From positions 1 to 64,000 of the forward strand of contig JAKAPL010000012.1 of the NCBI GenBank assembly GCA_021807105.1: a stretch of 64,000 nt of DNA, read 5' to 3'. The translations under genes were made by a program, and so were the position numbers. Of the stretch, positions 18,311 to 63,044 are shown piece after piece. How positions within the stretch are numbered: position 1 is the first letter of the stretch; each line of letters begins with the position of its first letter. Under the pieces are notes generated by a model, which saw only the letters and a list, made by a program, of their open reading frames with translations, had not been told where the DNA came from and did not search any database. The DNA is from Myxococcales bacterium. GTDB lineage: Bacteria; Myxococcota; Myxococcia; Myxococcales; JAKAPL01.

Positions 18311-19513
18311 ATGGCCTTGAGCTTCGATTTCTCCGAGGAGCAGCAGCAGACCCGCGCCGCCACCGAGCGGCTCCTGCGGCGCTTCGAGTCGCGCCGCGAG
18401 GAACTGAAGCGGATGATTCTCAAGGAGCAGAGGTTTCCCCAGGAGATGTGGGACGCCTTCGCCGAGGCCGGCATCCTGGGAGCACTCGTCCCCGAGGAGT
18501 ACGGCGGCAGCAACGCCGGACTCCTGTCGATGGCGATCGCCCTCGAGGAGATGGGCGCCCACGGCTTCGGGTCCGCGCTCCTCATCCTGACGGCGATGGA
18601 CACCGCCTGCCTCGTGCGCAACGCGACCGAGGCGATGAAGAAGGAGGTGCTCCCCGAGGTGGCAGCGGGCAAGCTCAAGCTCTGCTTCGCGGTCACCGAG
18701 CCGAACGCCGGTTCGAACACCTTCCGGATCACCACCACGGCCAAGAAGACCGCGGACGGCAAGCATTACCGGCTCAACGGGGAGAAGACCTTCATCACCG
18801 GCGCCGACGTCGCCGACCGGATGCTGCTCGTCGTCCGGACGACGACGCTGGCCGAGTGCAAGGCCGCAGGGCTGCCCAAGGCCGTCGGCCTCTCGCTGCT
18901 GCTCATCGACCCGCACGGCCCCGGGATTACCCTGACCCCGCTGCCGACCCGCGGCATCGAGGGCTTCCGGCAGTTCAGCGTGGTCTTCGAGGACGCGCTC
19001 GTGCCCGCCGACACGCTCGTCGGCGAGCAGGACGGGGGCGCCATCGCCCTGTTCACCTCGCTCAACCCCGAGCGGATCCTCGCTGGCGCGCTCGCGGTCG
19101 GCCTCGCCCAGCACGTGAACAACAAGGCCGCCGCCTACGCGATGGACCGCAAGGTATTCGGGGACGAACCCATCGCCACCCACCAGGCCATCTCGCACCC
19201 GCTCGCCGAGATCCAGATCGAGATCGAGGCGACGAGAAATTTGGTGTACGAGGCCGCCTGGGCGTTCGACAAGGGGCTGGAGCCGGGCGAGGTCGGCTAC
19301 TACGCCAACTGCGCGAAGTTCAAGGCTGCGCGGCTCGCCCTCCACGCCGTGGACCGGGCGATCCAGACGCACGGTGGCGGCGGCTTCTCCGAGGACATGG
19401 GGATCATCTACTACTGGGAGAGCGTGCGTCTGCTGAAGACCGCGCCGATCACCGAGGAGATGATCCTGAACTACGTGGCCGAGCACAAGCTCGGCATGCC
19501 GCGCTCCTATTAG
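18311..19513 (+). CDS. Acyl-CoA dehydrogenase
   Basis: The 400-residue flavoprotein has the standard three-domain order. The N-terminal helical domain starts FDFSEEQQQTRAATERLL; the FAD/substrate motif FAVTEPNAGSNT is at about 139-150; and the C-terminal helical domain carries QTHGGGGFSEDM and the terminal ITEEMILNYVAEH, whose glutamate is a candidate for the catalytic base of this group. It oxidises an acyl-CoA at the alpha-beta position, passing electrons to ETF. It lies downstream of the SCP2 gene with its own GGAGG site. The TAG stop is part of the 5-bp target duplication of the adjoining MITE. Confidence 0.93.
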   Translation: MALSFDFSEEQQQTRAATERLLRRFESRREELKRMILKEQRFPQEMWDAFAEAGILGALVPEEYGGSNAGLLSMAIALEEMGAHGFGSALLILTAMDTACLVRNATEAMKKEVLPEVAAGKLKLCFAVTEPNAGSNTFRITTTAKKTADGKHYRLNGEKTFITGADVADRMLLVVRTTTLAECKAAGLPKAVGLSLLLIDPHGPGITLTPLPTRGIEGFRQFSVVFEDALVPADTLVGEQDGGAIALFTSLNPERILAGALAVGLAQHVNNKAAAYAMDRKVFGDEPIATHQAISHPLAEIQIEIEATRNLVYEAAWAFDKGLEPGEVGYYANCAKFKAARLALHAVDRAIQTHGGGGFSEDMGIIYYWESVRLLKTAPITEEMILNYVAEHKLGMPRSY

Positions 19514-19724
19514 CCCGTCTTATTCACGGTACGGCGTAGCGAGACGTTCGAGACCGCGAGCCGAGAAGGGCAAGCGAGAGCGACGACCGACGAGGCGTCG
19601 CGTGAAGCCCGCCGCAGGAGGTAAGGAGCGAGCAGCCCCCCCATGTCGTTGTAGGGGTGGCAAGCCCCCCCTTCGGGAGGCGCGGGATCGGACGCCGCAG
19701 CAGCCGGACCGTGAATAAGACGGG
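19514..19724 (+). mobile_element. MITE family 1, complete copy A (211 bp)
   Basis: Ends are CCCGTCTTATTCACGG and CCGTGAATAAGACGGG, a perfect 16-bp inverted repeat. The flanks are ATTAG on both sides (19509-19513 and 19725-19729), a 5-bp target duplication. The left duplication contains the TAG stop codon of the acyl-CoA dehydrogenase. This is the longest copy; it has an extra CCCCCCCATGTCGTTGTAGGGGTGG block missing from the other three complete copies. Confidence 0.9.
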
Positions 19725-31559: not shown

Positions 31560-31994
31560 ATGGCAGGAAGCGTGAACAAGGTGATCTTGATTGGCAACCT
31601 GGGGGCGGACCCCGAGACCCGCCGCAGCCCGGACCGCGAACCCATCTGCAACTTCCGGATCGCGACCACCCGCAAGTGGAAGGACAAGAACGGGGCCTCC
31701 CAGGAACGGACCGAGTGGCACCGGATCGCGACCTTCGGCAAGCTCGCGGAGCTCTGTGATCAGTACCTCGCGAAGGGGCGGCAGGTCTATGTCGAGGGGC
31801 GGCTCCAGACCCGTGAGTGGACGGACAAGGAGAACCAGAAGCGCTGGACGACGGAGATCATCGCCGAGCAGGTGACGTTCCTGGGCGCCCGCGAAGGCGC
31901 TCCCCGGCACGGCGACAGCCCCCCGCCCGATTTCAACGGGGCGCCCGACGCTCCGGACGCCCCGGCCACGCCGGGCGACGACATCCCGTTCTAG
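31560..31994 (+). CDS. ssb: Single-stranded DNA-binding protein
   Basis: The OB-fold is clear: [50 protein letters not shown] and the [18 protein letters not shown] hairpin. A short Pro-rich linker leads to the acidic tip GDDIPF, which recruits repair and replication proteins. At 144 residues it is of usual length, and GAGGAGG precedes the ATG. The TAG stop is formed by the first bases of the small CTAGGAGGCT element that follows. Confidence 0.95.
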
Positions 31995-32040
31995 GAGGCT
32001 CGGTGTGAAGCGTCCCCGCGGAAAAACAGCAGCCTCCTAG
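31991..32040. mobile_element. 50-bp deletion derivative of repeat family 2 at the ssb stop codon
   Basis: It starts CTAGGAGGCTCGGTGTGAA and ends AGCCTCCTAG; the ends are a perfect 10-bp inverted repeat and could act as a hairpin terminator between the convergent ssb and actF genes. The left-end sequence CTAGGAGGCTCGGTGTGAA is shared with the element at 62423. The CTAG provides the TAG stop of ssb. Confidence 0.75.
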
Positions 32041-39621: not shown

Positions 39622-39883
39622 ATCGACCTCACCAGGGGAAGCGGCTCATCGGCCGCGCTTCATGAGTGGAGCGCGCGTGCCCCCGAACCAAGGACCCAGA
39701 TGGGTCAGCGCGGCGCGCCCTCACGTCACGAGCGCGTGAGGGGGCCCCCGCGACGCCCGGATGCGTGACCAGCGGCTGCGACCCGCCCGATGCAACGGCG
39801 ACCTACCCCGCCCCCGCGCCACGGCCGCCTCGTGGCCGCCCCCGACCTCCGCCCGGCCGCCACGTGAGGGACGGCGCCGTCTC

Positions 39884-41080
39884 CTACTTCAAGTCCAGCC
39901 GATAGATCCCAAACTCCTGTCGGTTCTTGAGCGCCATCCAGAAGAGGCTCCTTCCGTTGCCGAGAAGCCAGTTCCAGACCTCGCCGTCCACCGTGGCGAG
40001 CACGGTCGCCGATCCGCCATCGACGGGAACCGCGGAGATCACGTCCGCCGAGGCCCCTGCCGCGTAGTAGGCCGTCTCTCCAACGATCGCGAAAGCCCAA
40101 CTCCCGAGGCCGGATGCCACGGTCACCGGAGCTCCACCGCCGATAGGAACCCTCATCAGCGCAAGCTCGGTCGAGCCCGCGCCGGGAATGCGTTCCGTCC
40201 AGTAGACGCTCGTCGAATCCACCGCCAGACTGGCGCCGAACCCCGCATCGCTGCTCGCGAGAAGCGCCGGGACCCCGCCATCGGCCGACACCTGCATCAA
40301 TGTGCTCGGGCCCTTGTCCCCGGCCCACCCCCAGCCCGTTGTCCAGTATACGTTCCGGTTATCCGCTGCCAGCGTCCAGACTATAATTCCGCCATCAAAA
40401 TCGGGGACAGTCGCGAGAGTCGTCGTCTCCTGCCCGCTGACAGCCGTCTTCTCGACGGTCGACGCCGGCGGCACCCTGGGTGGTGGGCGATCAGCCGGGT
40501 AGCCAAGATCGCCCCAGTAAACGCTGTTCCCGGCCACCGCTACTTGGTACGGCCACTCGCCAGACACCAAAGTCGTTGCCGCGCCACCGGCCGCTGGCGC
40601 CTTCATTAACACGCCGCCTCCACCCAGACTCGTCCAGTAGACGTTCGTGCCATCGGACGCGAGCCCCTGGGGAGCCAGGCACTCTATCCCCGAGGCAAAG
40701 GTGACCACCTCCCCTCCTGCCACCGGCGCAGCCATGATCAAGCCGTTGAACCCGCGCGTGTTTACCCCCCAGTAGACGTATGTCGAATCCACTGCCATTG
40801 CCTGGACAGGCCCGACTGCGGGATCCAATCGCGCGACCAAGACCGGCCCCCCCGTGCCCGAGCTGCTCCCGGACGATGCCATCCCCGAGGAACTCCCGCT
40901 CGATCCGCTGCTCCCCGAGGCACCGCCCGTCGATCCGCTGCCCGACGCACTTCCGCTCGATGCATTCCCGGCGTCCCCGCTCCCCCCCCCGTCGCCGCCC
41001 TCGCCGGCGGGCTGGAAGGCGCACGCCGCGAGCCCGATCGCGCACGCAATCGCCCTCGTCGCAATCCTGCCGCGAGCCAT
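39884..41080 (-). CDS. Propeller-type surface lipoprotein with YVYW repeats (copy 1 of a tandem pair)
   Basis: The protein starts MARGRIATRAIACAIGLAACAF with lipobox LAAC, then a Ser/Gly linker of about 55 residues (GSGSTGGASGSSGSSGSS). The rest is a chain of about six propeller-like repeats with VAVAGNSVYWGD, SDGTNVYWTS and VDSTYVYWG motifs, as in DUF5050-type six-bladed propellers frequent in myxobacteria. It ends IYRLDLK. It should be displayed on the outer membrane; binding partner unknown. A paralogue with the same start and end sits immediately upstream. Confidence 0.8.
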   Translation of the reverse strand: MARGRIATRAIACAIGLAACAFQPAGEGGDGGGSGDAGNASSGSASGSGSTGGASGSSGSSGSSSGMASSGSSSGTGGPVLVARLDPAVGPVQAMAVDSTYVYWGVNTRGFNGLIMAAPVAGGEVVTFASGIECLAPQGLASDGTNVYWTSLGGGGVLMKAPAAGGAATTLVSGEWPYQVAVAGNSVYWGDLGYPADRPPPRVPPASTVEKTAVSGQETTTLATVPDFDGGIIVWTLAADNRNVYWTTGWGWAGDKGPSTLMQVSADGGVPALLASSDAGFGASLAVDSTSVYWTERIPGAGSTELALMRVPIGGGAPVTVASGLGSWAFAIVGETAYYAAGASADVISAVPVDGGSATVLATVDGEVWNWLLGNGRSLFWMALKNRQEFGIYRLDLK

Positions 41081-41221
41081 CGTAAGCGACTCTACCGTAT
41101 TCGCGCGCGGCCCGCGAGCGTCTCCCGGCTTGTCGCTCCAACCCACGAGATGCAGCCGTGAGCCGCCGCAACCCGCCGCGGCGCCTCCGCCCGGCCGCCA
41201 CGTGAGGGAGGGCGCCGTCTC

Positions 41222-42379
41222 CTACTTCAAGTCCAGCCGATAGATCCCGAAGTCACTGCCGCCCTTTAGCTCCAACCAGAACAGGCTCTTCCCGTTGCCG
41301 AGCAGCCAGTCCGACACCTCGCCGTCCGCCACGGCGAGCACGACCGGCGAACCGCCATCGATGGAAACCGACGAGATCACGTTTCCCGAAGGCCCCGCCG
41401 CGTAATAGGCCGTCTTTCCAACGATCGCGAAAGGGTAATTCCCGAGGTTGGAGGCTACCGTCGCCGGCTCTCCGCCCCCGATGGGGACCCTCAGGAGGGC
41501 CGCCGCGGTCGGTCCCGCGTCCGGGAGCGGCTCTGTCCAGTAGACGCTCGTCGTATCCACCGCGAGGCTGGCGCCAAACATGTCGCCGCTCGCGAGAACC
41601 AGCGGCGCCCCGCCGCCGGCCGGGGCCTGCATCAACGTGGTCGGGCCGGCTTGCCACCACGCCTTCACGGCCGCGAGCCAGTAGACGTTCGTGCCATCCG
41701 CCGCGACTGCCCAGACGGACTCTCCGGCGTCGGGGACAGTCGCAAGAGTCTCGGTCTCCTGCCCGCTGGCAGCAGTCTTCTCGATCGTCGAGACCACGGG
41801 CTCCGGCTGCGTCTGCGTGGGGTATGGATGCCCCATATTGCTCCAGTACACACTGTTCCCAGCAACGGCGATCGCGAACGGCGCCTCGCGCGACACCAGA
41901 GTCGTCGCCACGCCGCCCGCTATCGGCGCCTTCATTACCAGGCCGCTGCTAGGACTGGTCCAGTAGACGTTCGTGCCATCGGATGCCAATCCCTGAATAA
42001 AGTCGCAGCTCCTTCCCGAGACCACGGTGATCTCTTTCCCTCCCCCCACCGGTACGGCCATGATCGACCCACTCGTCCCCTCGCTCGCTACCGCCCAATA
42101 AACGTACGTAGAATCCACGGCCATCGCCCGAACAGACTCTACTTTCGAGTCGAATCGCGCGACCAACATCGGTCCCCCATCGATCGAGCCACTCCCCGAC
42201 GAGCCTGCCCCCGATCCGCTGCTTCCCGAGGCACCGCCCGTCGATCCGCTGCCCGACACGTCCCCGCTCGCGCCCCCCCCGTCGCGGCCCTCGCCGGCGG
42301 GCTGGAAGGCGCACGCCGCGAGCCCGAACATCCCGATCGCGCACGCAATCGCCCTCGTCGCAATCCTGCCGCGAGCCAT
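41222..42379 (-). CDS. Propeller-type surface lipoprotein with YVYW repeats (copy 2 of a tandem pair)
   Basis: The gene shares its signal peptide (MARGRIATRAIACAIG), its last residues (FGIYRLDLK) and its repeat organisation with the gene at 39884, while the Ser/Gly linker is shorter and the blades have diverged. Repeats read STYVYWAV, GTNVYWTS, GNSVYWSN, TSVYWTE and TAYYAAG. Non-coding flanks before the start and after the stop are also shared, so the pair arose by a direct tandem duplication of about 1.34 kb. Surface location is inferred from the lipobox LAAC. Confidence 0.8.
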   Translation of the reverse strand: MARGRIATRAIACAIGMFGLAACAFQPAGEGRDGGGASGDVSGSGSTGGASGSSGSGAGSSGSGSIDGGPMLVARFDSKVESVRAMAVDSTYVYWAVASEGTSGSIMAVPVGGGKEITVVSGRSCDFIQGLASDGTNVYWTSPSSGLVMKAPIAGGVATTLVSREAPFAIAVAGNSVYWSNMGHPYPTQTQPEPVVSTIEKTAASGQETETLATVPDAGESVWAVAADGTNVYWLAAVKAWWQAGPTTLMQAPAGGGAPLVLASGDMFGASLAVDTTSVYWTEPLPDAGPTAAALLRVPIGGGEPATVASNLGNYPFAIVGKTAYYAAGPSGNVISSVSIDGGSPVVLAVADGEVSDWLLGNGKSLFWLELKGGSDFGIYRLDLK

Positions 42380-42394
42380 CGTAAGCGACTCTAC

Positions 42395-42560
42395 CGTATT
42401 CGCGAGCAGCCCGCGAGCGTCGCGCTCTCCCAGCGCTCCACCTGTCGCGAGCAGGTACACGTACCCGTCGAGTCGTCGCAGCATTCGCCGTTACGGCAGT
42501 CGCTCTGGAACGCGCAACTGCCGCCGGCAGAGGAAAGTGGGCGGGGGGAAGAAGGGCGGT
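42395..42560 (-). pseudogene. Remnant of a cysteine-rich protein gene
   Basis: On the minus strand one frame reads SSAGGSCAFQSDC, then RNGECCDDSTGTCTCS, and a stop follows at about 42395. This density of Cys in a C-x5-C-x4-CC-x6-C-x-C pattern, on a Ser/Gly background, is typical of the secreted Cys-rich lipoproteins seen elsewhere in the window. There is no start codon with a ribosome site and the 5' part runs into the minisatellite zone. It is probably the 3' end of a lost gene. Confidence 0.45.
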
Positions 42561-42710
42561 GATCGCACCCACGGAATCGGCCGCACGCGCTCGTCCATGA
42601 GGGCCGAGCCCGCCGTCATCGGCCTCGCGTGCTCCACGATGAGCAGCGGGCCCTCCATCGCCAGCCTCCGCACCTCCTCGACGAGGAACCGAGGGTGGAC
42701 GTCGAGGGAC

Positions 42711-43151
42711 GCGGGGCCGGCCATGGATGACGCGGGAACCAGCATGAGGGGCGCGGGAACCAGCATGGATGACGCGGGGCCGAGCCTGGATGCCGCAGGG
42801 CCGAGCCTGGAGGTCGCAGGGCCAAGCCTGGAGGTCGCGGGGCCGAGCCTGGATGACGCGGGGCCGAGCCTGGATGCCGCGGGGCCGAGCCTGGATGGCG
42901 CGGGGCCGAGCCTGGATGCCACGGGGCCGAGCCTGGATGCCACGGGGCCGAGCCTGGATGCCGCAGGGCCGAGCCTGGATGCCACGGGGCCGAGCCTGGA
43001 GGTCGCGGGGCCGAGCCTGGATGCCACGGGGCCGAGCCTGGATGCCACGGGGCCGAGCCTGGATGCCGCAGGGCCGAGCCTGGATGTCGCGGGGCCGAGC
43101 CTGGATGCCACGGGGCCGAGCCTGGATGCCACGGGGCCGAGCCTGGATGGC
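42711..43151. repeat. Minisatellite of 21 units of 21 bp
   Basis: Units of the type GCGGGGCCGAGCCTGGATGCC repeat 21 times without indels, with a further eroded unit to 43172. Variation is limited to a few positions (GATGCC/GAGGTC/GATGAC and GCGGGG/ACGGGG/GCAGGG). The ORFs that cover it (42537..43376 + and 42491..43207 -) are by-products of the period. A complete MITE begins 56 bp further on. Confidence 0.9.
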
Positions 43152-43207
43152 GCGAGGCCGAGCATCGGCCGGCGCCCCCTCGTCGCGAGGGAGCGCCTTC
43201 TCATCAT

Positions 43208-43382
43208 CCCGTCTTATTCACGGGACGGCGTAGCGAGACGTTCGAGACCGCAGCCGAGAAGGGCGAGCGAGAGCGACGACCGACGAGGCGGGCTAAAGCC
43301 CGCCGCAGGAGGGAGGAGCGAGCAGCCCCTTCGGGAGGCGCGGGATCGGACGTCGCAGCAGCCGGACCGTGAATAAGACGGG
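43208..43382 (+). mobile_element. MITE family 1, complete copy B (175 bp)
   Basis: The element has the 16-bp ends CCCGTCTTATTCACGG / CCGTGAATAAGACGGG and the duplication ATCAT on both sides (43203-43207 and 43383-43387). It lies between the minisatellite and the CDF gene and, unlike the other complete copies, does not touch a stop codon of a recognised gene. Confidence 0.9.
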
Positions 43383-44726: not shown

Positions 44727-44915
44727 TCCAGGAGGCTCGTGTCCCACGGGCGCCGTCGCGAGGAAGCCGAGATCGAGGCGAGACGGGCACCCGAGGAGTG
44801 AACCGCGTCAAACGTACTCTTTGCAGTACGTTTTGCAGCGAAGCGACGAGGCCGCCCGTCGCGAGCGAAGGGCTCGGCTTTCGCGGTCGGCAGCCATTGA
44901 AGCCCAGCCTCCTAG
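44727..44915. mobile_element. Repeat family 2, full-length copy (about 188 bp)
   Basis: The ends are CCAGGAGGCT and AGCCTCCTAG. The interior is about 80% identical by eye to the copy at 61077, including GTCCCACGGGCGCCGTCGCGAG, AAACGTACTCTTTGC, GCGAAGCGACGAGGCCG and GGCTCGGCTTTCGC. An imperfect internal hairpin surrounds ACGTACTCTTTGCAGTACGT. No reading frame is convincing. The rest of the 520-bp gap before xseB holds only its promoter. Confidence 0.8.
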
Positions 44916-48833: not shown

Positions 48834-49577
48834 ATGACCCGGCTCCGCGCCGACCGGCTGCTCCTCGCCCGCGGCCTCGCGAAGAGCCGCACCCAGGCGC
48901 AGGCGCTCGTCATGGCCGGGCAGGTCGTCTCCGGAGAGACACGGATCGACAAGCCCGGCCAGCTCCTCGCCGAGGACGCGCCGCTGCGGCTCAAGGAGGG
49001 CGCACTGCCCCGTTACGTCTCCCGCGGCGGGGAGAAGCTCGCGGCGGCGCTCGGCGCGTTCCGGATCGACCCCACCGGCCTCGCCTGCGCCGATCTCGGC
49101 GCCTCGACCGGCGGCTTCACCGACTGCCTGCTCCAGCACGGCGCGGCGCGGGTGCACGCCTGCGACGTGGGGCGCGGGCAGCTCGACCCCCGGATCGCGC
49201 GCGACCCCCGGGTCGTCGTCCACGACCGGGTGAACGTCCGGGCCTTGCGCCCGGAGGAGCTGGGCGAGCAGGTCGCGCTCTGCACCCTCGATCTCTCGTT
49301 CATCTCGCTGCGGCTCGTCTTCCCGGCCGTCGCGGCCCTCCTCGCCTCCGGCGGCCGGATGGTCGCCCTCGTGAAGCCCCAGTTCGAGGTCGGCCGCGCG
49401 AGGGTCGGCAGGGGTGGGGTGGTGCGCGACCCAGAAGCCCGCGCACAGGCCATCCGGGAGGTCGCCGCCGCGGCGGAGCAGCGACGCTTCGTCGTCGAGG
49501 GCGTCATCGATTCCCCCTTGCGCGGCCCGGCGGGCAACCTCGAAGCGTTGCTCGTCGCGCGGCGGGCGATCGAGTAA
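48834..49577 (+). CDS. tlyA: TlyA-family rRNA 2'-O-methyltransferase
   Basis: An N-terminal S4 RNA-binding domain (RADRLLLARGLAKSRTQAQ, LVMAGQVVSG) is followed by an FtsJ-like methyltransferase. The latter has YVSRGGEKLAAAL, the SAM motif ADLGASTGGFTDCLLQHGA (about 85-103) and ALVKPQFEVGR with the catalytic lysine. At 247 residues it matches TlyA, which methylates ribosomal RNA in relatives and is often annotated as haemolysin. It ends the dxs operon. Its TAA stop lies inside the 5-bp target duplication of the next MITE. Confidence 0.92.
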   Translation: MTRLRADRLLLARGLAKSRTQAQALVMAGQVVSGETRIDKPGQLLAEDAPLRLKEGALPRYVSRGGEKLAAALGAFRIDPTGLACADLGASTGGFTDCLLQHGAARVHACDVGRGQLDPRIARDPRVVVHDRVNVRALRPEELGEQVALCTLDLSFISLRLVFPAVAALLASGGRMVALVKPQFEVGRARVGRGGVVRDPEARAQAIREVAAAAEQRRFVVEGVIDSPLRGPAGNLEALLVARRAIE

Positions 49578-49578
49578 C

Positions 49579-49751
49579 CCCGTCTTATTCACGGTACGGC
49601 GTAGCGAGGCGTTCGAAACCGCAGCCGAGAAGGGCAAGCGCAGCGACGACCGACGAGGCGTGCTGAAGCACGCCGCAGGAGGAAGGAGCGAGCACGCCCT
49701 TCGCAGGCGCGGGATCGGACGCCGCAGCAGCCGGACCGTGAATAAGACGGG
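49579..49751 (+). mobile_element. MITE family 1, complete copy C (173 bp)
   Basis: The 16-bp inverted ends are intact and GTAAC flanks both sides (49574-49578 and 49752-49756). The left duplication contains the TAA stop of tlyA. The 200 bp from here to chrA contain no recognised gene. Confidence 0.9.
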
Positions 49752-58922: not shown

Positions 58923-60245
58923 TTGCGGCGGCTCCTTCTAGCGGCGGCGGCGTTTTCATTCGGGTTCTCGCTCGCCTGCCAGTCCTACGATTTCCGGAAG
59001 GTCACCGGGGTACCGGTGGAGGTGATCCACAAGACCGTCCACCAGCAGGTCTTGCACCTCACGCCGCCGGACATCCTGATCGTCCAGGATCTCTCCGGCT
59101 CCATGTGCGAGCCGATCCAGCAGACCGACCCCGGCGGCAAGTCGTGCCTCGCGACGGACGGAGGCCAGGCGGGCTACTGCTCCGTCTGCCTCCCCGGCGG
59201 AGGCCCCCCGCCGAGCGCGGGGGACTGCGCGACAGGAAGCTCGGCCTGCGCCGCCAAGATCTCCCTCGTGTCCGACGCCATGCAGACGGTGCTGAACGAT
59301 CTCCCCCAGGTCGCGGGTCAGCTCTACCTCGGCCTCGCCTCGTTCCCCTCCGACAGCCAGTGCGGCACCGGGCAGATCGACATCCCGGTCGGCGACGCGA
59401 CCACGACGATCCCGCAGATCGTCTCCTTTTATGGCAGCGCGGCCCCGAACGGCGGCACGCCCACGGCGGCGACGCTGTCCGCGGTCGTCTCCGCGGATCC
59501 CCTCATGTCGAACCCCGACCCGAACAGCCGAAAGTTCATCATCCTGATCACCGACGGCCTGCCGAACTGCAACGGGACGAACCCCTGCGGCTCGGCGCCG
59601 TGGTCGGACGGGCAGGTCCACGCCTGCGAGTCCCCGAGGTACCTCGCGTCGCTCACCGACGGAGGTTTCTCCGCGACCCCGGCCGCGGGCTGCTTCTGCT
59701 CGAACGGCTCCTGCGAGAGCCTCGAAGGCAACCAGGCCGACTGCTGCACCTACGACCCGGCCACCTACCCCCAGATCGCCACCGAGGAATGCCTGGACGA
59801 CGTGAACACGGTCCAGGCCATCGCCGACCTTTACACCCAGCAAGGGATCCGGACCTACGTCGTCGGCATGGGATACGATTACGGGAGCAACCCCGGGATC
59901 CTCGACGAGATGGCCGACGCGGGCGGCGGCAACCCGACCGCGTACAAGGCGACGAGCCCGCAGGGCCTGCTCGCGGCCATCCAATCGGTCGTCAACGCGG
60001 CCGCGGCATCGGTCGGCTGCGTCTTCACCCTCGACGCGCCGGCGGCGAATCCGGCGCTCATCGAGGTGACGTTCAACGGGACGCGACTCTCGCCGCTGCC
60101 GCCGGGCAGCCACGGCACGGGCTACGTCTACCTCCCGCCGCCGCCCGACGGAGGTCCGGCGGCCGTCGACGTCGAGGGCAGCGATTGCGACCTCCTGCTC
60201 GACGGCGGCGCCGCGAACCTCCAGATCACCGAGATCGCCCAGTAG
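58923..60245 (+). CDS. von Willebrand factor A-domain lipoprotein, TTG start
   Basis: The ORF track begins inside the tRNA; the TTG at 58923 has CGGAGG six bases upstream and gives a signal peptide ending FSLACQ (lipobox). The VWA domain starts PDILIVQDLSGSMCEP, with the MIDAS motif DLSGSM (about residue 46), and continues to FIILITDGLPNC (the second MIDAS/TDG region, about 205) and VVGMGYDYG. Additional cysteines (CFCSNGSC, ADCCTY) suggest disulfides. It resembles myxobacterial VWA lipoproteins of unknown role, perhaps adhesion. 440 residues. Confidence 0.85.
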   Translation: MRRLLLAAAAFSFGFSLACQSYDFRKVTGVPVEVIHKTVHQQVLHLTPPDILIVQDLSGSMCEPIQQTDPGGKSCLATDGGQAGYCSVCLPGGGPPPSAGDCATGSSACAAKISLVSDAMQTVLNDLPQVAGQLYLGLASFPSDSQCGTGQIDIPVGDATTTIPQIVSFYGSAAPNGGTPTAATLSAVVSADPLMSNPDPNSRKFIILITDGLPNCNGTNPCGSAPWSDGQVHACESPRYLASLTDGGFSATPAAGCFCSNGSCESLEGNQADCCTYDPATYPQIATEECLDDVNTVQAIADLYTQQGIRTYVVGMGYDYGSNPGILDEMADAGGGNPTAYKATSPQGLLAAIQSVVNAAAASVGCVFTLDAPAANPALIEVTFNGTRLSPLPPGSHGTGYVYLPPPPDGGPAAVDVEGSDCDLLLDGGAANLQITEIAQ

Positions 60246-60295
60246 ACCAGCCTCCCGCCCACCGCCGGGAGGACAAGAGTCGTGGAGCTTTAAAC

Positions 60296-60471
60296 CCGTC
60301 TTATTCACGGGACGGCGTAGCGAGGCGTTCGAGACCGCGAGCCGAGAAGGGCAAGCGAGAGCGACGACCGACGAGGCGTGCGTAGAGCACGCCGCAGGAG
60401 GAAGGAGCGAGCACGCCCTTCGGGAGGCGCGGGATCGGACGCCGCAGCAGCCGGACCGTGAATAAGACGGG
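60296..60471 (+). mobile_element. MITE family 1, complete copy D (176 bp)
   Basis: Both 16-bp ends are intact. The flanks are TTAAA and TTAGA, an imperfect 5-bp duplication. The right flank (60472-60476) contains the TTA that is the TAA stop of the minus-strand haem lipoprotein gene. Confidence 0.85.
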
Positions 60472-60831
60472 TTAGAGAGGCGGCGCGATCCGCCGCCCGC
60501 GCCAGCTCTTGCGATACGGGCGCAGGTAGGCGCGATGGCACTCCTTGCAGCCCGCCGAGTACTCGCGGCCCTGGAGCATCCGGTCGACGATCTGCGGCCA
60601 GCCGTAATCGCCGTTGCTCCAGGCCGGGTCGGGCGCCAGCTCGCGCAGCCGAACGAGCGTCTCGCGCAACTCCACCTCGGAGAGCCGCCCCTTCGCGAAC
60701 GGGGCCATCCGGCATCTCATCACCGCGACGAGCGTGTCGAGGTGGCCGGGCGAGCAGTCGAGCGGCGCCTCCACCGGGGCCGCGGGCGGCGCCGGCGCGC
60801 GCTTGCAGCCGGCCAGCGCCAGCGCCGCCAC
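60472..60831 (-). CDS. Small lipoprotein with one c-type haem motif, adjoining tRNA-Leu
   Basis: The protein has lipobox ALAGCK, a Pro/Ala linker and a domain of about 90 residues with CSPGHLDTLVAVMRCRMAPF and the haem site GCKECHRAYL near the C-terminus; the tail KSWRGRRIAPPL is basic. It looks like a short cytochrome c' or related type. The ORF track starts 47 codons upstream across the tRNA; I prefer the GTG at 60831, 16 bases from the tRNA, although the signal peptide is then very short. The first codons may lie in the processed tRNA transcript. Confidence 0.65.
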   Translation of the reverse strand: MAALALAGCKRAPAPPAAPVEAPLDCSPGHLDTLVAVMRCRMAPFAKGRLSEVELRETLVRLRELAPDPAWSNGDYGWPQIVDRMLQGREYSAGCKECHRAYLRPYRKSWRGRRIAPPL

Positions 60832-60846
60832 GACGAGGACGGCAAG

Positions 60847-60930
60847 TGGCCCCCCCCGGAGTCGAACCGGGATGGCCTTGCGACCGGCGGATTTTGAGTC
60901 CGCTGCGTCTACCGATTCCGCCAGGGGGCC
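60847..60930 (-). tRNA. tRNA-Leu (CAA)
   Basis: The 84-base sequence has the GGCCCCC/GGGGGCC acceptor stem, a D-loop with GGAATCGGTAGACGC, an anticodon stem GCGGA-CTCAAAA-TCCGC giving anticodon CAA, a long variable arm and the CCCGG-TTCGACT-CCGGG T-arm. CCA is not encoded. Confidence 0.96.
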
Positions 60931-61076
60931 TTCCTGCTGCCGATGACGACGCACCTGCTTCTCAAGGCTCAAAGCAAAGCCGGGATGTTCCCGCGCGGCT
61001 CACCGTACCCCATGTACGATCCCGCCCCACGCGCCTCGCATCTACCTGCATCCTCCTCGCCCCTCGCGCGAGAGGT

Positions 61077-61262
61077 CTAGGAGGCTAATGTCCCATGGGC
61101 GCCGTCGCGAGACAGCCGAGACCGAAGCGAGACGGACGCCCGAGGAGTGATCAGCGGAAACGTACTCTTTGCCGCACGTTGACCGGCGAAGCGACGAGGC
61201 CGTCCGTCGCGGCGGAGGGTTCGGCTTTCGCAGTAGGCAGCCATGAGACACCAGCCTCCTAG
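61077..61262. mobile_element. Repeat family 2, full-length copy (186 bp)
   Basis: It begins CTAGGAGGCT and ends AGCCTCCTAG, a perfect 10-bp inverted repeat. The interior matches the copy at 44727. If the ends are read as GGAGGCT/AGCCTCC the flanking bases are TA on both sides, which would fit a TA target as used by IS630/mariner-type elements. No gene is encoded. Confidence 0.8.
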
Positions 61263-61294
61263 GTATCTCCCGCCTGGGCCGCGCGTCAAGGTCT

Positions 61295-62005
61295 TCACCT
61301 GCGCTGCCAGACGACGCGGCGGCCGCCGGACAGCTCGGGTGGGGGCTTCTCCAGATGGAACTGGAACCAGGCGGGCTCGTAGGCCCGCATCTTGATCCTC
61401 TTGCCGTTCTGGACCGCCGTGAGGTTTGCCCGCAACCGGTCGTCGGTCGGGTTCACCTCGACGGCCCGCGCGAGCACGGCCTGGGCCTTGGCGTTCTCGC
61501 CCGCCTTCTGCCAGCAGTAGGCGTAGACGCTCCAGGGCAACCCCTCCTTCTTGCCCGCCTTGACCGCCCGCTCGAAGGCCTCGACCATCCGGGCGTGATC
61601 CCTGCGTTGGAAGTAGAGCGCCCCGAGGGTCGCCTGCGCCTGCCAATCCCGGAAGAAGGACTTCTCCAGGTGCGGCAGCGCGTCGTCGAACTCCTTGCGC
61701 GCGTACAGGAGGACGCCGAGCGCGCCGTGGAATTGGGAGGCGAGCAGGAACTGCCGGCCGGCGAGGGCGAAACCCTGGCGCAGCGAGTCGACCGCCTTGT
61801 CCACCCGCCCGGCCGTGAGATCCTTCTGGACGCCGTCCATGAGCGCCTGGACACGGCGGCTCACCTGACGGTTGAGCAGGTAGAAGACGGCGGAGAACGC
61901 GGCCAGGGCCGGCAGGATCAGCAGCAGGAGCGACCATCCGGTCACCAGCTTGAAGACGAGCAGCGCCGCCGCCGCCATAACGATCGAGATCGCGAGGTTG
62001 ATCAC
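61295..62005 (-). CDS. Membrane-anchored TPR protein
   Basis: Two N-terminal hydrophobic helices (about 3-21 and 23-44) are followed by roughly four TPR-type helix pairs (FHGALGVLLYARKEFDDALPHLEK, AQATLGALYFQRRDHARMVEAFERAV, VYAYCWQKAGENAKAQAVLARAVEVNP). The C-terminal 35 residues contain a conserved-looking RAYEPAWFQFHLEKPP. It probably scaffolds a membrane complex; the partner is unknown. The next gene upstream (62051) is a small membrane protein in the same orientation, 45 bp away, so an operon is likely. Confidence 0.8.
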   Translation of the reverse strand: MINLAISIVMAAAALLVFKLVTGWSLLLLILPALAAFSAVFYLLNRQVSRRVQALMDGVQKDLTAGRVDKAVDSLRQGFALAGRQFLLASQFHGALGVLLYARKEFDDALPHLEKSFFRDWQAQATLGALYFQRRDHARMVEAFERAVKAGKKEGLPWSVYAYCWQKAGENAKAQAVLARAVEVNPTDDRLRANLTAVQNGKRIKMRAYEPAWFQFHLEKPPPELSGGRRVVWQRR

Positions 62006-62050
62006 GGCGCGTTCTCTTACCTACCGCCGCCGAACGTCGCAAGCGGCTTT

Positions 62051-62329
62051 TCAGGCAGTCGCTTTGGGGGAGGCCGGCGGCGGCACGCGCCGCCTCGCCC
62101 GGGCGGCCCGCAGATAGAGGTAGAGCCCGGCGAGCGCGACCGCGCCGGCGAGCGCCCCCACCCCTTCCCAGAGCAGCAGCCGCGCGATCGACCAGCTCAC
62201 GGCCGGTCCCACGTCGCAGCCGATGGGGAAGGGCGGAACGGCCCACCAGTGGATGAGCCTCGCGGAGAGGGCCGCGGCCGCGGCCGCTCCCAAGAGCCCT
62301 CCGACGAGAAAGAAGACGAGCAGCCGCAT
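62051..62329 (-). CDS. Hypothetical two- or three-helix membrane protein, 92 aa
   Basis: The protein has hydrophobic segments at about 4-25, 42-60 and 60-78, and a basic C-terminal tail (RAARARRRVPPP). It includes HWWAVPPFPIGCDVGPA, which may be a loop with functional residues, but no family is recognised. The ATG start is reasonable and the reading has good codon usage for the organism. It precedes the TPR gene and could form an operon with it. Confidence 0.65.
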   Translation of the reverse strand: MRLLVFFLVGGLLGAAAAAALSARLIHWWAVPPFPIGCDVGPAVSWSIARLLLWEGVGALAGAVALAGLYLYLRAARARRRVPPPASPKATA

Positions 62330-62382
62330 GCCGTTGCCCTCGCGGTTCCGACCGGGAAAGCGCCAGCTTAGCAGCTTCGTGA

Positions 62383-62415
62383 CGCGGGGGCACGACGTTC
62401 GGCCGTGCCCCCGCG
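62383..62415 (-). terminator. Strong GC hairpin downstream of the CBS gene
   Basis: CGCGGGGGCACG and CGTGCCCCCGCG form a perfect 12-bp stem with a 9-base loop, located between the CBS gene and the next minus-strand gene. No U-tract is visible. Confidence 0.65.
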
Positions 62416-62422
62416 AGACGAC

Positions 62423-62475
62423 CTAGGAGGCTCGGTGTGAACTGGCTGCCTGCTGCGAAAGCCGAACCCTCCTAG
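62423..62475. mobile_element. 53-bp deletion derivative of repeat family 2 at a CBS-gene stop codon
   Basis: The sequence CTAGGAGGCTCGGTGTGAAC, CTGGCTGCCTGCTGCGAAAGCC, GAACCCTCCTAG equals the terminal 45 bases of one end of the full-length element (the minus strand of 61262) closed by a second CTAG. The TAG on the minus strand is the stop codon of the CBS gene, exactly as at ssb. Confidence 0.75.
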
Positions 62476-62894
62476 ATCCGCGCCTCCCGCTCGCTGATCT
62501 GGCGCAGCGTCTGCCATGCGTTCGCCTGCTCCCGCTGGGCGATGTCCGAGAGGCTGATCACGCCCTGGAGACGGCCGCCGCCGTCGAGGCACATGATGCG
62601 CGACTTGTGGTGCTTGGCCATGAGCTGCTCGGCCTCCCGCAGGTCGTCCTTCGGATTGCATCCGACGACCTCGCGGGTCATCACGTCCTCCACGAAGCTG
62701 GCCACCGGCTTCTTGCCCGCGACGAAGCGGATCGCGATGTCCCGGTCGGTCAGGGTCCCGACCACCTTCTTCGACTGATCGCAGACCGGCAGGAAGCCGA
62801 CGTTCTCGTCCCGCATCTTCCGGGCGGCGTCCTCGACCGTATCACGGGGGGAGACGCACTCGAAATCACGCTTCATCAGCTCTTCGCACAACAT
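62472..62894 (-). CDS. Two-CBS-domain protein
   Basis: The 140-residue protein consists of two CBS motifs: MKRDFECVSPRDTVEDAARKMRDENVGFLPVCD with GTLTDRDIAIR, and VMTREVVGCNPKDDLREAEQLMAKHHKSRIMCLD with GVISLSDIAQRE. Such pairs bind adenosyl nucleotides and act as energy or redox sensors, usually by docking on another protein. The ATG MLCEELMK was chosen because GGAGG lies 8 bases upstream; the ORF track includes an unrelated 5' extension. The stop codon is part of the family-2 mini-element. Confidence 0.9.
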   Translation of the reverse strand: MLCEELMKRDFECVSPRDTVEDAARKMRDENVGFLPVCDQSKKVVGTLTDRDIAIRFVAGKKPVASFVEDVMTREVVGCNPKDDLREAEQLMAKHHKSRIMCLDGGGRLQGVISLSDIAQREQANAWQTLRQISEREARI

Positions 62895-63044
62895 TTTGGA
62901 GACCTCCGGAGTGGGGTAGGCGGAGAAGATAGCCACGCCGGACCGAGGGGCGAGGACGGGGAGCTTCCCCGACCCACCTGGGCCGGCGACCCCGGAAGAC
63001 GTCATTGCCACGCCCACGCTCGCGGCGTTAGACTCGCTCCATCT

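Follow-up and report, generated by a model that had tools for sequence, protein, structure and literature searches.

Results

A deletion derivative at the stop codon of a CBS gene

The 53-bp element at positions 62423-62475 of the window (the whole 64,000-nt stretch of Myxococcales DNA analyzed here) is best explained as an IS1182-type MITE that has been shortened by internal deletion and inserted in the CTAG formed by the native stop of the CBS gene (ATC-TAG), with the supply of CTAG sites and the purging of harmful insertions, rather than recognition of stop codons, placing the copies. We give this reading a probability of roughly 0.87. The assignment to the IS1182 type relies on the resemblance of the element ends to those of an IS1182-family insertion sequence, as judged from sequence.

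The element (CTAGGAGGCTCGGTGTGAACTGGCTGCCTGCTGCGAAAGCCGAACCCTCCTAG; no strand assigned) can form a hairpin, is bounded by CTAG on both sides and carries an 8-bp perfect terminal inverted repeat (CTAGGAGG/CCTCCTAG). The adjoining gene, on the minus strand (62472-62894), starts at 62894 and encodes a CBS-domain protein of native length (140 aa, MLCEEL...REARI; PF00571, 96 bits). Its 3' end reads GCG CGG ATC TAG, where the TAG (minus strand, 62474-62472) lies within the right-hand CTAG (62472-62475), so that the frame does end REARI-TAG at the element end, as the original prediction had it. The interior of the mini-element corresponds to profile positions 139-186 of the full-length family-2 element (nhmmer E-value 2.6e-8, in 0.84 Mb), and its positions 1-48 match other copies with up to 96% identity over 48 bp (BLAST, E-value down to 5e-17). 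This match to one arm of the full element identifies it as an internal deletion derivative and not a chance hairpin, in agreement with the earlier claim; the mini-element consists of the right arm of the 187-bp element closed by an early CCTCCTAG. The CBS orthologue of the nearest relative has a TGA stop, and the pre-insertion CTAG at the CBS gene is not directly visible. In an Rfam scan of window positions 60000-63000 the sole match above cut-off was a tRNA, leaving the mini-element without a curated RNA family.

A second family-2-type mini-element, 50 bp long (31991-32040; no strand assigned), lies at the stop of the ssb gene (31572-31994, plus strand), just as had been described: the gene ends DDDIPF-TAG, its stop codon forming part of the element's left CTAG, and the orthologue in a relative of the same genus (G001) has an empty TTC-TAG site. 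One end of this element (CTAGGAGGCTGCTGTTTTTC) agrees at 18 of 20 bases (90%) with the left end of an IS of the IS1182 family in another genome (locus L181, see below). The other two family-2 copies in the window, a full-length element at 61077-61262 (plus strand) and one with a decayed left end (CCAG) at 44728-44915 (plus strand), are off stop codons. Five copies from two unrelated families were predicted to sit on stop codons in the window, and this count was confirmed, namely 31991 and 62423 for family 2 and 19514, 49579 and 60471 for family 1; the families differ in having IS1182-type and IS1380-type ends, respectively. The window also contains 21-bp tandem repeats in long arrays at 7-825 and 42628-43226, and about 1.3 kb of repeat-rich sequence duplicated in tandem at 39846-42421, with copies 82-98% identical.

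The full-length element and its genome

The host MAG (3.76 Mb, about 72% G+C) contains at least 40 near-full-length family-2 copies. An alignment of 30 of them gave CTAGGAGGCTGGTGTGAAATGG and its complement as the ends, with terminal repeats of about 22 bp, and the interior of the full element (187 bp) forms a single long imperfect hairpin (-110 kcal/mol, z-score -10.3 versus shuffled sequences). Almost all intact copies are flanked by CTAG. Family 2 thus has the hallmarks of a MITE, i.e. terminal inverted repeats, dispersed copies in high number, the lack of a transposase gene and a length of 50-187 bp, and target duplication is indicated by operon spacings that are restored on excision of the element plus a single CTAG and by the empty ssb site in G001. 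Neighboring elements that abut have one CTAG in common (L008, L157), as predicted by duplication of CTAG or of its central TA. No match to the element was found in plasmid and viral collections. Two CTAG-bounded elements of 120 and 126 bp elsewhere (L050:4714-4833 and L052:16564-16689; G000 C58) have family-2 ends around unrelated, A+T-richer interiors and may be remnants of a lost autonomous IS.

The stop codons are native to the genes

The original prediction held that the TAG is supplied by the element end. Such an element, bringing its own TAG, would truncate or re-end genes near their 3' ends, and the TAG is indeed physically inside the CTAG boundary, with both ends reading TAG outward. 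Comparison with relatives of the same genus (G001) and of the same family (G002) contradicts this. In nearly every comparison, the C-termini of the orthologues coincide or lie no more than a few residues apart; SSB (DDDIPF), YajQ (NFRD), FtsK, Pta and IscX all terminate exactly where their counterparts in the relatives do. Moreover, an element-free C-TAG stop is found in orthologues of ssb, yajQ, mlaE, purS, ftsK, relA, pta and iscX. For SSB, the G001 sequence is CCG TTC TAG CCGGCGG without an element, whereas here CCG TTC TAG is followed by the element and then by CCGCCGG.

The spacing of tightly packed genes tells the same. After subtraction of the element and one CTAG, the stop-to-start distance is 3 nt for nuoK-nuoL, as in both relatives, 0 nt for mlaE-mlaF, like G001, and 3 nt for purS-purQ, like G002. 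Together, the equal C-termini, the element-free C-TAG orthologues and the restored spacing show that the genes had these stop codons already and that CTAG, or its central TA, has been duplicated, 4-bp and 2-bp duplications being indistinguishable in this setting. The side of the gene on which the elements lie (41:1 in the sampled genome and 23:0 in related loci, detailed below) also fits native stops and not random hits near 3' ends. An element-borne stop codon is therefore largely refuted, and we consider it very unlikely.

The preferred reading, insertion into a native C-TAG, has a simple consequence. An IS1182 transposase acting in trans would cut at CTAG and duplicate it. Since CTAG reads TAG on both strands, such an insertion would leave a functional stop on the gene side in either orientation of the element.

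A putative IS1182 partner and occurrence in other genomes

The terminal sequence was searched for in 85,000 species genomes and turned up in further Myxococcota and in Actinobacteria, where it bounds elements 62-259 bp long. At L181 the ends CTAGGAGGGTGGTGTTTTTC and CTAGGAGACTGGTGTGAAATGG are 1.83 kb apart around a 546-aa IS1182 transposase (NF033551, 295 bits versus a cut-off of 270), with the matching ends CTAGGAGRSTGGTGT, and three Myxococcales genomes also contain CTAG-bounded IS1182 copies. An origin from the IS5 group, prompted by the YTAR-like target, was tried as well and rejected, as the transposase of L181 was recognized by the IS1182 model and fell far short of the cut-offs for IS5.

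The window's own MAG (95% complete) contains neither an IS1182 transposase nor a DUF772 match, and an autonomous element with the same ends was not found there. Likewise, a search of this genome with PF01609 and PF05598 yielded no IS1182 partner; one of the PF01609 matches proved to be the IS1380 partner of family 1. Mobilization in the MAG would have been by an IS1182 transposase whose gene may have been lost, may be unassembled, or may be carried by other members of the population.

Element ends on stop codons recur in other lineages. In the Myxococcota IP29b loci 23 ends lie on stops, all 23 on the outer side of the gene; three were found in another Myxococcales MAG and five in Acidimicrobiia loci. 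In G053 and its neighbors (different family, same order) the elements have the family-2 hairpin interior but unrelated ends (TAGTGCCCCGGCCCAGG), and they too are often on TAG stops (12 of 52 end candidates, some false ends included). The hairpin interior of about 130 bp is 70-77% identical between L074-L091 and the window copy at 61077-61262, that is, across genera with entirely different terminal sequences. It seems that the hairpin core has either changed ends or been conserved for its own sake.

Stop-codon occupancy across the sampled genome

A sample of 1.23 Mb (about one-third of the fragmented MAG), read as stretches and biased toward contigs with known copies, was annotated with a simple gene caller based on an iterated codon-usage model, giving 1008 genes and 87% coding sequence. 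Both ends are intact in 32 of the full-length copies in this sample; 21 of these have an end that coincides with the TAG stop of the neighboring gene, 11 are intergenic and none is within a gene. When partial and miniature copies are included, 39 of 63 insertions (62%) are on a TAG stop, a conservative figure since the cut-off missed a few stop copies whose ends have decayed, the two mini-elements of the window among them, and none is in a coding CTAG, with 75 coding sites available. The sample holds 119 C-TAG stops, 42 of which adjoin an element-like end, 41 on the outer side of the gene and one on the inner side. About one-third of the C-TAG stops in the sampled genome thus carry an element end, with the gene unharmed. 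These counts bear out the expectation that family-2 copies lie on stops far above chance genome-wide, and the outcome that would have spoken against it, most copies lying far from gene ends, did not appear. The strand bias relative to the gene that was to be checked is absent, with 11 full-length copies on stops in the same orientation as the gene and 10 in the opposite one.

Two mini-elements between convergent genes (C100:48243-48292 and C8:15353-15516) have each end as the stop of one gene, as expected if both genes once had a single common CTAG. Such a bare CTAG, still common to two convergent stops, was found at C61:32452.

CTAG supply and target choice

CTAG is 8.5-fold depleted (373 occurrences observed versus 3166 expected from base composition). 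Outside recognized element ends it is found at 77 stops, at 127 intergenic sites and at 73-75 coding sites; stops make up about 0.3% of the sequence, yet 27-29% of the free CTAG sites. Coding CTAG sites are never occupied (p = 4e-8), and occupancy is lowest in divergent (promoter) regions. The flanks of occupied sites showed neither a longer target motif nor a palindrome, and an extended target motif was rejected on the same ground. Stop CTAGs are a main source of target sites outside genes and can be occupied almost without harm, insertions within genes being purged.

Availability alone leaves one feature unexplained. Occupancy is higher for stop CTAGs (39/116) than for other intergenic CTAGs (24/151; odds ratio 2.7, p = 0.0008). 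This excess could mean that insertion is steered to stops or gene 3' ends, or that copies are kept there as a hairpin 3'-end element (terminator or mRNA-stabilizing), beyond what CTAG supply provides. The very stable hairpin formed by the full-length element would suit such a role, and IS1182 elements have been reported as over-represented between convergent genes (PMC9208149). However, the stop excess is not significant within one gene arrangement (p = 0.26 for tandem and p = 0.18 for convergent contexts), the even orientation provides no support, no T-run was seen by inspection 3' of the hairpin, and copies interrupt tight operons such as nuoK-nuoL. Steering or retention of this kind appears unlikely, and active targeting of stops is not required for the pattern. 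If it did hold, the host could be using the conserved hairpin core as a 3'-end element. On balance, CTAG supply and the purging of harmful insertions explain most of the stop pattern, while a modest additional preference is possible.

A different route to gene ends is known from the same transposase family, in which IS1272 and TnSha1 target terminators without target duplication (PMC5678879, PMC4923244), and the family-2 element might similarly replace a terminator hairpin just after the gene. The sites do not resemble such targets, though. Joined flanks pair at 2.23 of 8 positions versus 2.31 for bare CTAG sites, with no palindromic excess; relative to empty sites, occupied ones have gained the element plus one CTAG and have lost no hairpin; and a 4-bp duplication has been reported for the IS1182-family element ISPse1 (PMC3281130). 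We regard stem-loop replacement as extremely improbable here. Palindromic targets are cited for some IS1182 members in PMC5678879 and PMC4923244. At L219 (G053 C32) an IS1182 copy has GGCCGC-CTAG on one side and CTAG-GCGGCC on the other, so that its empty site would be a 16-bp palindrome, unlike the MITE sites.

A parallel in family 1

Family 1 is a weaker parallel to family 2 on stops. Its ends are CCCGTCTTATTCACGG, its target is roughly YTNAR, and its duplications are of 5 bp (e.g. CTCAG, CTTAG, CTAAG, TTCAA). In the window (no strand assigned), one gene ends at 19513, and its TAG stop falls in the ATTAG (TTAG-type) duplication of the element at 19514-19724; another ends at 49577, and its TAA stop falls in the GTAAC duplication of the element at 49579-49751. 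The element at 60295-60471 adjoins the TAA stop of a minus-strand gene (60472-60831), and the one at 43208-43382, with the 5-bp duplication ATCAT, is off a stop. Overall, 16 of 109 family-1 ends are on stops, a lower share, as expected from the looser target.

The same genome encodes an IS1380 transposase with similar ends. At L133:985-2409 an IS1380-family transposase (NF033539, 269 bits) is flanked by CCCGTCTTATTCACG and CCCGGCTTATTCACC and likely mobilizes family 1. In one case (L066:16938-17324; G000 C92) a family-1 element has inserted into a family-2 copy and duplicated CTTAG, which makes the empty site directly visible. Another such nesting occurs at C100:19667-20107, and family 1 appears to reuse CTTAG within family 2.

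Comparison with known systems

The pattern joins three facts, namely the avoidance of CTAG in bacterial genomes, TAG stops and a transposon with a CTAG target. As a rule, a palindromic target that holds a stop triplet would find many free sites at stops and would regenerate the stop in either orientation. This accounts for 187-bp elements inside the tight operons nuoK-nuoL and purS-purQ, and predicts pile-up sites for other elements with YTAR-like or CTAG targets. It also means that the annotated ends of these genes can be trusted even though a repeat overlaps the stop. The literature searched contained no description of MITEs gathering on stop codons, which is no proof of absence; a review of MITEs (PMC10969869) mentions neither stop codons nor IS1182.

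Family 2 is like other bacterial MITEs (non-autonomous DDE elements) in being short and non-coding, with terminal inverted repeats, many copies, target duplication and the ends of an IS family. It differs in that its target word largely coincides with stop codons, placing most copies on stops. With the IS1182-family IS (ISPse1, L181 and the Myxococcales copies) it has in common terminal sequences (L181), CTAG boundaries and high-GC hosts, whereas the elements of the window lack a transposase, are 50-187 bp long and have an unrelated hairpin interior. IS1272 and TnSha1 belong to the same transposase family and also insert near gene 3' ends, but they replace hairpins without duplication, whereas family 2 uses CTAG without a hairpin context. 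According to passages of PMC5493358, CTAG is scarce and IS5 of E. coli prefers this under-represented word; these passages do not mention accumulation on stop codons. IS5 is thus like family 2 in its CTAG preference, but is of a different family with a looser target, YTAR. Finally, the IS1380-family MITEs of family 1 are similar in their small size and in a palindromic target of about YTNAR that contains stop triplets, with some copies on stops, but their ends and transposase are unrelated to those of family 2, and fewer of their copies are on stops.
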